A DNA stretch of 64,000 nucleotides from Ruania rhizosphaerae (lineage in GTDB: Bacteria; Actinomycetota; Actinomycetes; Actinomycetales; Beutenbergiaceae), in assembly GCF_009805705.1 (NCBI RefSeq), contig NZ_VSMB01000005.1, forward strand, positions 1 to 64,000, read 5' to 3'. The position numbers and the translations under genes were made by a program. Position 1 is the stretch's first letter. Every line of letters starts with the position of its first letter. The notes under the pieces were generated by a model. The model worked only from the letters and a program-made list of their open reading frames with translations, was not told where the DNA came from and did no database searches. This document shows, piece by piece, positions 10,644 through 13,974 of this stretch.

Positions 10644-12163
10644 CGTCGACGGATCACATCGACTGGCACCGTCTGCACCGCATCACGCCGGTCCTGAACG
10701 CGTGGAAGGTCGCTGCGGGGCTCTTCGCGGTCTTCGTGTGGCAATCGGCCGACCAGCTCGGTGAACTCGACCTCGCCGTCACCACACTGCTGCTGATCAT
10801 CGCCGGGGTCGTCGTGCTCGGGGCGCTGCTCGGTCTCGGCTTCTCCGCCCTGGCGTGGTCACGCACCAAGTACGGCATCACCGAGGACAGCATCCTTCTC
10901 CACTCCGGTGTGCTGTTCCGGCAACAGCGCCACGTGCGCCTGGACCGACTGCAGACGGTCGACGTCACCCAACCGCTGCTGGCGCGATTCACCGGCTTCG
11001 CGGCACTGAAGATCGAGAGCGCCGGAGGTGCAGGCTCCAACCTGACACTGGCGTATCTGCGCGAGGACGAGGCGCAACGGCTGCGCAACGAACTCCTCGC
11101 CCGAGCCGCCGGGGTGCGGATGGAGACCGACGAGGCCGGCGTGCAGCACGCACCGGCAGCGCCGGAGATGCACCTGTACACCCTCTCCCCGGGGCGGCTC
11201 GTCGGATCGCTTGCGCTCTCCGGCGGGATTGTCACGATGCTTGTCGCGGCCGTCGGCCTCGTGGTGATCGCCGTCGTCACCGAGAACCTCTCCTCGGTGT
11301 TCGCGATGGGTGCCCCGCTGATCGGTGCCGCAGCCTACTTCTGGAGCCGGTTTGCCGGTGAGTTCTCCTTCCGGGTGGCCACCTCGCCCGACGGCATCCG
11401 CATCCGTCAGGGTCTGCTCGAGTCCAAGGCTCGCACCGTCCCACCCGGCCGGGTGCAGGCGGTCCGGCTGGCCCAGCCGCCGCTGTGGCGTTTCAAGGGC
11501 TGGTGGCGGATCACTGTCAACATCGCCGGGTACGGGGCGGAAGAGACCACCGGCACCGTGCTCTTCCCGGTGGCCACCGAGGCTGAGGCGGCTCACCTGC
11601 TCTCCCTCGTGCACCCCGATCTCGGGGACGATCGGCCGCTGGAGGTCCTCCGTGCTGGCCTGACCGGGGACGGCGACCAGGAGGGTTTCCAGCACACCCC
11701 GGCGCGGGCATGGTGGCTGGACCCCCTCACCTGGCGGCGCACCGGAGTGCGTATGACCGGCACGGCGGTGCTGCTGCGCACCGGGCGGTGGTGGCGCTCG
11801 CTCGTCCTCGTCCCCCACGAGCGCATCCAGTCGCTCGGTGTTACTCAAGGGCCGTGGGAGCGCAAGCTCGACCTGATGACCTTCTCGATCCACTCCACGC
11901 CCGGACCCGTCACGCCGATGGTGCACCATCAGGATGCCGAGGCGACCAGCCTCTTGCTGGCCGAGATGACCCGTCGCGCCCGGAACGCTCGCCGGAGTGC
12001 CGGCCCCGAGCGCTGGATGACCCCGGCCGAGGAGGGGTCCGCGGCGCTGCACGAGGGTGGCGGCTTCGGTGGCGTTCTCCCGTCCCGCGTCGTCAGTTCT
12101 GCTGGGGTGCTCCCGGCCTCGCCTCGGGCCATGACGGACGATCCTGGGAGAATGGCCCCGTGA
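10640..12163 (+). CDS. Bacterial PH-domain membrane protein (YdbT-like)
   Basis: The 507-residue protein has an N-terminal pair of membrane helices, a bPH_2 domain (about 75-155, including VRLDRLQTVDVTQPLLARF), a second membrane pair (about 190-235), and two more bPH_2-like domains (about 245-325 and 360-440). The repeated pattern of arginine-rich strands followed by an amphipathic 'RIQSLGVTQGPWERKL' element marks the domains. This is the usual three-PH architecture. It overlaps both neighbours (GTGA), so it is co-translated with the smaller PH protein and followed by the pantothenate genes. Confidence 0.85.
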   Translation: MTSTDHIDWHRLHRITPVLNAWKVAAGLFAVFVWQSADQLGELDLAVTTLLLIIAGVVVLGALLGLGFSALAWSRTKYGITEDSILLHSGVLFRQQRHVRLDRLQTVDVTQPLLARFTGFAALKIESAGGAGSNLTLAYLREDEAQRLRNELLARAAGVRMETDEAGVQHAPAAPEMHLYTLSPGRLVGSLALSGGIVTMLVAAVGLVVIAVVTENLSSVFAMGAPLIGAAAYFWSRFAGEFSFRVATSPDGIRIRQGLLESKARTVPPGRVQAVRLAQPPLWRFKGWWRITVNIAGYGAEETTGTVLFPVATEAEAAHLLSLVHPDLGDDRPLEVLRAGLTGDGDQEGFQHTPARAWWLDPLTWRRTGVRMTGTAVLLRTGRWWRSLVLVPHERIQSLGVTQGPWERKLDLMTFSIHSTPGPVTPMVHHQDAEATSLLLAEMTRRARNARRSAGPERWMTPAEEGSAALHEGGGFGGVLPSRVVSSAGVLPASPRAMTDDPGRMAP

Positions 12164-13974
12164 ACTCCCGTCCTGGCCGCCTCGGTGTCGGCATCGTCGG
12201 TGCAGGGCGCGTCGGGGCGGTACTGGCGAGCGCGCTACGGGCCACCGGCCACGCCGTCGTGGGCGCCAGCGGTGCATCCGAGGAGACGCGAGAGCGGATC
12301 GAGGTTCTCCTGCCGAACGTTCCGGTGCTCGACGTGCGCGATGTCGTCGAGCGCAGCGAGCTGGTGCTGCTCACCGTTCCCGACGACGTCCTGGGTGACC
12401 TCGTCGCCGGCCTCGCCCGGCTCGGCGCCTTCCAGCCCGGGCAGCTGGTGGTGCATACCGCCGGCCGGTACGGCGTCGATGTCCTGGCCCCGGCGCGGGC
12501 CCGTGGCGCGATCCCGCTCGCGATCCACCCGGCGATGACCTTCACCGGTACCAGCGTCGACCTGAGCAGAATGGACGGGCTGCCCTTCGCAGTGACCGCC
12601 GACCCGCCGGTGCTGCCCATCGCCCAGGCGCTCGTGGTCGAGCTCGGGGGAGAACCGATCGTCTTGCCGGAGGAGGCGCGTCCGCTCTACCACGCGGCGC
12701 TGGCGCACGGAGCCAACCATCTGGTCACCCTCACCAGCCAGGCGATGCGGGTGCTGACGGCCGCTGGGGTGAGCGATGCGGGAACGCTCCTCACGCCGCT
12801 GCTCTCGGCAGCCCTCGACGGCGCACTGCGCGGTGGCGAGGTCACGCTCACCGGGCCGGTGGCACGCGGCGACTCCGGCACGGTGGCCGAGCACCTGACG
12901 GCGCTCGCGGGGATCGTGGCGGCCGACCCCGCCTTGGTGGACGTCCCGGAGACCTATGTCGCCCTCGCGCGGGCGACGGTGCAACGCGCACTCGCGGGTC
13001 GGCGTATCTCCGAGCCGGCCGCCACGAGGTTGCTCGACGTCCTGGACCCGGTGACAGATCCGGCGACGGACCACGAGGTGGAGAGCGGCGGACCCGAGGT
13101 CGTCAGGACAGTGGCGCAGCTACGGCAGCGACGGGAATCGTGGAACGAGCCGGTCGCCGTCGTGATGACGATGGGTGCCCTCCATGAGGGGCACCTGGAG
13201 CTGGTGCGGGTGGCGCGAACGCTCGCCCCCCGCGTGATCGTGACCATCTTCGTGAACCCGTTGCAGTTCGGTGCGGGTGAGGACCTGGCCGCCTACCCGC
13301 GCACCCTCGACGCCGATGTCGAGGCGCTGGGCCGGGAGGGAGTGGACCTGGTCTTCGCCCCTCCGGAGTCCGAGATGTACCCCGACGGCGCACCTCAGGT
13401 CACGATGACGGCCGGACACATGGGGGAGGTGCTGGAGGGGGCCGACCGCCCGGGCCACTTCGACGGCATGCTCACCGTGGTGGCCAAGCTGCTGCACCTG
13501 ACCCGGGCGGACATCGCGATGTTCGGGCAGAAGGATGCCCAGCAGCTGGCACTGGTACGGCGGATGGTCTCCGACCAGAACATCCCGGTGCGGATCGAGG
13601 CAGTTCCGATCGTGCGCGAGCCGGATGGACTGGCCATGTCCAGTCGCAACGCCTACCTGGACGAGGCGGAACGCACTGCGGCACTGGTGCTCTCACAGGC
13701 GGTGGCCGCCGGTGCGCAGGCCGCGGCCGACGGGGGTACCGTGGACGACGTGCTCGCGGCCGCTCAGCGCATACTGGACGAACGGGACCGGGACCTGGTT
13801 CGCCCCTCGTACCTGGAACTCGTGGACGAGCACACGATGACCGCGTGGGGTGAGCGCCACCCCGGCGGGCGATCGCCGAGCAGGGCCCTGCTGGTCGTGG
13901 CGGCCCGGGTGGGCGCGACGCGTCTGATCGACAACGCGGTGGTCTCCTGGCCACTGCAGGAAGAGGCACGATGA
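12160..13974 (+). CDS. panC: Fusion of a DUF2520 Rossmann oxidoreductase-like protein with pantothenate synthetase
   Basis: One uninterrupted 604-codon frame encodes two proteins usually made separately. Residues ~8-305 are a Rossmann/DUF2520 protein: GAGRVG (14-19) for dinucleotide binding, LVLLTVPDD, the conserved IHPAMTFTGT, and YHAALAHGANHLVTL in the helical half. Residues ~314-604 are PanC, joining pantoate and beta-alanine: TMGALHEGHL (from 337) is the HIGH-type motif, followed by IFVNPLQFGAGED, FGQKDAQQL and MSSRNAYL. No stop or strong internal start separates them; GTG codons near 13051 could allow internal initiation. Overlaps with both neighbours (GTGA, ATGA) place it in an operon with panD. 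Confidence 0.9.
   Translation: MNSRPGRLGVGIVGAGRVGAVLASALRATGHAVVGASGASEETRERIEVLLPNVPVLDVRDVVERSELVLLTVPDDVLGDLVAGLARLGAFQPGQLVVHTAGRYGVDVLAPARARGAIPLAIHPAMTFTGTSVDLSRMDGLPFAVTADPPVLPIAQALVVELGGEPIVLPEEARPLYHAALAHGANHLVTLTSQAMRVLTAAGVSDAGTLLTPLLSAALDGALRGGEVTLTGPVARGDSGTVAEHLTALAGIVAADPALVDVPETYVALARATVQRALAGRRISEPAATRLLDVLDPVTDPATDHEVESGGPEVVRTVAQLRQRRESWNEPVAVVMTMGALHEGHLELVRVARTLAPRVIVTIFVNPLQFGAGEDLAAYPRTLDADVEALGREGVDLVFAPPESEMYPDGAPQVTMTAGHMGEVLEGADRPGHFDGMLTVVAKLLHLTRADIAMFGQKDAQQLALVRRMVSDQNIPVRIEAVPIVREPDGLAMSSRNAYLDEAERTAALVLSQAVAAGAQAAADGGTVDDVLAAAQRILDERDRDLVRPSYLELVDEHTMTAWGERHPGGRSPSRALLVVAARVGATRLIDNAVVSWPLQEEAR

Follow-up and report, generated by a model that had tools for sequence, protein, structure and literature searches.

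The window analysed here, a stretch of 64,000 nucleotides from Ruania rhizosphaerae (contig NZ_VSMB01000005.1), contains a gene in which a DUF2520 protein and PanC, the pantothenate synthetase, are encoded by a single open frame of 604 residues, with a GTG start codon at position 12160 and a TGA stop codon ending at 13974 on the forward strand. The fusion is real and is retained across the relatives that were examined. Its product is probably bifunctional and would catalyse two successive steps of pantothenate synthesis, with a ketopantoate reductase (KPR) of the PanG type as its N-terminal half; DUF2520 is very probably a KPR. In this pathway ketopantoate is the product of PanB and β-alanine that of PanD, and PanC uses ATP to activate pantoate for its coupling to β-alanine.

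The domain composition of the fusion protein was determined by profile searches. The N-terminal half, which contains a GAGRVG motif, was matched by the Pfam families PF10727 (Rossmann-like; residues 4–124, 123.4 bits against a cut-off of 23) and PF10728 (DUF2520; residues 142–272, 110.8 bits against 25). The C-terminal half was matched by PF02569 (Pantoate_ligase; residues 314–593) at 312.7 bits, far above the cut-off, and by the NCBIfam panC equivalog TIGR00018 at 273.5 bits (cut-off 212.75), with positions 3–282 of the 283 in the profile covered. The PanE/ApbA families PF02558, PF08546 and TIGR00745 were absent from the families matching the protein at an E value of 0.001. The PanC half aligned with PanC of Mycobacterium tuberculosis (1mop, chain residues 31–285) with an E value of 5.8e–64, and the sequences MGALHEGHL, FVNPLQFG, FGQKDAQQL and SSRN, which we take to be conserved active-site motifs of PanC, are kept. 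It is apparent that the ligase half is complete; the protein differs from PanC as such in the added N-terminal reductase half. Sequence relatives of that half are found in the Protein Data Bank as 2i76 and 3d1l (E values of 7.5e–13 and 1.1e–5), deposited as a hypothetical protein and a putative NADP oxidoreductase, respectively. The genome of R. rhizosphaerae (G000; 4.43 Mb, 43 contigs, completeness rated at 100%; the window lies within G000:C39) has one DUF2520 match.

In the mechanism proposed here, PanB, encoded elsewhere, would yield ketopantoate, which the DUF2520 half, of the 6PGDH-like kind, would reduce to pantoate with NAD(P)H. The PanC half would join that pantoate to β-alanine, the product of the adjacent panD. 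As the last step, the fusion would set a 1:1 ratio of the two activities and raise the local concentration of pantoate. The reductase activity and cofactor of this particular protein, and any benefit of the fusion, are what we infer.

Both domains were found in one frame in all 24 genomes examined from the family to which R. rhizosphaerae belongs (10 genera), and in the tree all 24 DUF2520 halves group in a single clade with a support of 0.98. The statement in the earlier note that a complete DUF2520 protein, GAGRVG motif included, and a complete PanC share a single frame is thus borne out by the Pfam and TIGR00018 matches and by all 24 relatives, each of which also encodes PanB above the cut-off. 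The stops counted in the fused loci of G159 and G160 come only after PanC has ended. For 23 of the 24 genomes, the distance from the GxGxxG motif to MGALH was between 312 and 367 residues; G168 has no row in this set, and the row of 630 for L053 is artefactual, arising from a GAGRAG string further upstream, and was replaced by a new reading of that genome, L060. The long linkers are rich in Ala, Thr, Gly and Asp.

A draw of 148 genomes from the class was also searched with the fusion protein; 142 had a match and six had none. Among the matches listed, a frame spanning both domains was observed in two genomes, that of R. rhizosphaerae and G040; the matches were sorted by score, and a spanning match would be expected near the top. 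Eleven class genomes with a single match, namely G050 and ten members of family f29, lie outside the matches listed, and the assignment of matches to PanC or DUF2520 does not extend to them. Many class genomes have DUF2520 and panC adjoining, again among the matches listed. In G110 and G147 the domains join only across a stop and represent two genes, and in G086 they are on separate contigs. G040 belongs to a different family, and in G058, which is closest to it in the tree, the two genes are not fused; the fusion therefore arose at least twice. The gene order in G040 is a folate gene, the fusion, panD, nadB, nadC and coaX, the last three identified by eye. Fourteen pattern matches were obtained in viral contigs, none of them to a relative.

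These data bear on an alternative that agrees with the proposed mechanism in all but its last step, namely that both activities are present with no channelling and that the fusion is the neutral loss of a stop between neighbours. The chances of this are about even. It accords with the adjacency of DUF2520 and panC in many class genomes and with the variable linker; retention in every own-family genome and at least two origins argue in the other direction, without proving a benefit.

The assignment of a KPR function to DUF2520 draws first on the literature. In PMC4572677 a DUF2520 protein of Corynebacterium ulceribovis is described, with EF1861 and FTT1388 (PanG) as homologues, and the KPR function is credited to Miller et al. 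(2013). PMC4494066, PMC4207893 and PMC5449765 refer to PanG either as a KPR or as standing in for PanE, the first of them stating that it replaces PanE. The link between the fusion protein and PanG is through the homology stated in PMC4572677; by this link both would be DUF2520-type reductases of pantothenate synthesis, and they differ in that PanG is reported as a separate protein. The KPR role suggested in the earlier note is in essence that of PanG and so is not new, the activity of PanG having been reported in 2013 (via PMC4572677). The 'PanG' of Bacillus subtilis (YkpB) is a different protein, described as the second PanE-family protein of that species (PMC11487621).

Gene order supplies further evidence. 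In Ruminococcaceae CPB6, DUF2520, panB, panC and panD adjoin by locus tag, and their transcript-table values lie together at 0.36–0.37 (PMC9705837). The order DUF2520-panB-panC was found in Thermomicrobium roseum; one Arthrobacter record shows DUF2520-panC, and one from Tsukamurella shows DUF2520-panC-panD-pantothenate kinase. In the genome G216 the order is DUF2520-panB-panC-panD (L081:4318–7288, DUF2520 first), where the first two genes were identified by profile and the last two by eye. DUF2520 thus occurs in pan gene clusters in three phyla. G216 comes from a draw of 158 genomes from the Lactobacillales, the order to which Enterococcus moraviensis belongs. It is the only one of the 158 with DUF2520, and one of 22 with PanB; the other 21 PanB genomes all have a PanE above the TIGR00745 cut-off, whereas the best score in G216 was 60.3 bits. 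The replacement of PanE by DUF2520 in G216 is a single event. E. moraviensis itself (G171) had no PanB match.

Conservation within the family was assessed with an alignment of 116 DUF2520 domains, 53 in an initial set and 63 added later. H99, H123, G232, P233, R236 and D238 are invariant in all 116, H178 varies in one, and residue 186 is N in 113 and D in three. The fusion protein has all eight of these residues, a set derived in this analysis. The N186D change is found in G030, G028 and G023, in each of which the sole match to the fusion protein, among the matches listed, is to its DUF2520 half. The pattern had been recorded from the first two genomes before G023, one of the 63 later sequences, was added as the third. 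PanB was not found in G030 or G028, the two of the three covered by that profile search; G023 is a draft with a completeness rating of 80%. The genes after DUF2520 are lysS in G030, nadB, nadC, coaX and lysS in G028, and coaX in G023 (coaX of G028 by Pfam, all others by eye); panC and panD therefore appear to have been lost from the cluster. The three genomes are not sisters in the tree. Further changes were H178Q, H245Q and Y266H in G030 and Y177L in G023. The other 113 domains come from fusions, from two adjoining genes (G110 and G147), from genomes with at least two matches to the fusion protein, the second of which need not be PanC in every case, or from G216. The three orphan genes (L082:7549–8463, L083:7108–8025 and L152:601–1491), in the genomes with no panC match, have intact frames and N186D; they are either retained for another role or decaying.

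Several observations weigh against the proposed role of DUF2520. A full-length PanE-family protein is encoded in 15 of the 24 own-family genomes, that of R. rhizosphaerae included, and IlvC scored above the cut-off in all 24, in G216 and in 21 of the 22 PanB genomes of the Enterococcus order. DUF2520 was not matched in four Enterococcus genomes, sought as a route to a PanG sequence. DUF2520 and panC lie kilobases apart in four actinomycetes (G041, G124, G134 and G144, among the matches listed), and single-sequence structure prediction of the whole fusion protein was of low confidence (predicted local distance difference test, 44.8; predicted template-modelling score, 0.28). To these are to be added plasmid records, 24 of which had a DUF2520 match. 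The contexts of ten were read, and for seven the gene tables, which are incomplete, list no pan gene at a distance of up to 5 kb; all eight of the residues named above are kept in all seven. The DUF2520 family need not, therefore, share one function, and the eight residues mark a working DUF2520 protein generally and not a pantoate product. In one of the plasmids, from Caballeronia, the DUF2520 gene (L096:4821–5654) is accompanied by genes for a tartrate dehydrogenase, an aldehyde dehydrogenase, a hydroxy acid oxidase and a ring-hydroxylating dioxygenase, and its protein likely has another substrate. Another, in a Legionella fallonii plasmid (L094:4821–5729), stands alone beside conjugation genes.

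With respect to PanE, G169 was the only own-family genome above the TIGR00745 cut-off. The R. rhizosphaerae protein, encoded at L084:4061–5446, reached 119.3 bits against 141.35; G149 had a partial match, and eight genomes had short fragments or none. In the class draw, PanE was above the cut-off in 46 of 148 genomes. The absence of PanE was rejected as a general reason for the fusion in view of the 15 genomes with a full-length PanE-family protein; within the family the fusion is present both where a PanE-like protein is encoded and where it is not. The suggestion that DUF2520 serves lineages lacking PanE stands for one lineage of the Enterococcus order, and the fusion fails as a marker of such lineages. 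The absence of PanE- and IlvC-type reductases, which the earlier note had proposed to look for, was likewise observed in part: nine own-family genomes are without a full-length PanE, and none is without IlvC.

IlvC was found above the cut-off in 79 of the 80 actinomycete genomes tested, a set made up of the 24 own-family genomes and 56 from the class draw chosen for having no strong PanE match. Because IlvC is so nearly universal, the role of DUF2520 is inseparable from it in actinomycetes. In G006, PanB and DUF2520 are present, with no IlvC above the cut-off and no full-length PanE match; this is a hint only, because it comes from one draft assembly of 230 contigs. It could be argued, then, that the true KPR is IlvC, with or without a PanE-like protein, and that the DUF2520 half acts on another substrate or regulates PanC. 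In C. glutamicum only ilvC is said to encode a KPR (PMC4353338, citing Merkamm 2003), and DUF2520 was unmatched in the C. glutamicum control genome; a regulatory role has been put forward for Rv3603c, a COG5495 neighbour of panC (PMC3317503). The result for C. glutamicum is compatible with both readings, in that it fits a division of labour without proving one. The homology to PanG taken from the literature, the replacement of PanE in G216 and the N186D pattern favour a pantoate-linked reductase and, with the pan operons in three phyla, support the KPR role that the earlier note had suggested, so that the assignment of this step to IlvC instead of DUF2520 is considered unlikely. Rv3603c of M. 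tuberculosis was assigned to the DUF2520 family by gene order, not by sequence, and differs from the fusion in being a separate gene with a published suggestion of regulation. The name is applied to different genes, coaX in PMC7770189 and the COG5495 protein in PMC3317503, one of the two uses being a numbering slip.

Finally, the possibility that a sequencing or assembly error had removed a stop between the domains, which the earlier note had named as grounds for refutation, was rejected and is negligible, because all 24 own-family genomes carry the fusion, with linkers of differing length.

Positions of the fused gene, its parts and the adjoining genes in the window
Feature	Position	Strand	Basis
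Fused gene, DUF2520 (PanG-like, predicted) reductase and PanC, 604 aa	12160..13974	+	Pfam, NCBIfam, relatives
Rossmann-like and DUF2520 half, residues 1–272; near-invariant H99, H123, H178, N186, G232, P233, R236, D238	12160..12975	+	Pfam, conservation
End of DUF2520 half and variable linker, residues 273–313	12976..13098	+	Fused relatives compared
PanC half, residues 314–593	13099..13938	+	PF02569, alignment with 1mop
panD, aspartate 1-decarboxylase; 4-base overlap with the stop of the fusion	13971..14414	+	PF02261, TIGR00223
Class II tRNA synthetase (D, K, N), lysS by cluster position; frame overlaps panD, start provisional	14263..15942	+	PF00152
Bacterial PH-domain protein upstream; stop overlaps the start of the fusion	10640..12163	+	PF03703
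Small bacterial PH-domain protein upstream	10146..10643	+	PF03703

The ATG of panD overlaps the stop codon of the fused gene. A cation efflux protein (PF01545, PF16916) is encoded beside the pan operon at 8710–10101 on the reverse strand; the frame at 9711–10085, ArsR-like by eye, overlaps that gene.

Both enzymes, including the reductase family, are already known, and it is their fusion that may be new. The bifunctional PanC/(d)CMP kinase (NF010004) is also a PanC fusion, in which the partner is a kinase; the fusion protein scored 273.2 against its cut-off of 524, over the PanC part only. No mention of a DUF2520-PanC fusion was found in the available parts of the open-access literature on PanG/ketopantoate reductase, DUF2520, FTT1388, Rv3603c and COG5495, or on the fusion itself, which is weak evidence of absence, and the architecture may well be listed already in protein databases.

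In some actinomycetes at least, the assignment of an enzyme to the conversion of ketopantoate into pantoate is poor. The gene annotated as panE in M. tuberculosis, for example, is non-essential, and knocking it down leaves growth unattenuated (PMC7770189). It is improbable, taken jointly, that DUF2520 is the main KPR in most actinomycetes, including supposed users of PanE or IlvC, that the fusion hands pantoate directly to PanC, and that the N186D form, found at three separate places in the tree, has a second job after the loss of panC. The natural DUF2520-PanC fusion and the N186D pattern point to DUF2520 as the enzyme for this step, and the fusion offers one simple protein for assay; the N186D pattern is the most useful by-product of the analysis.
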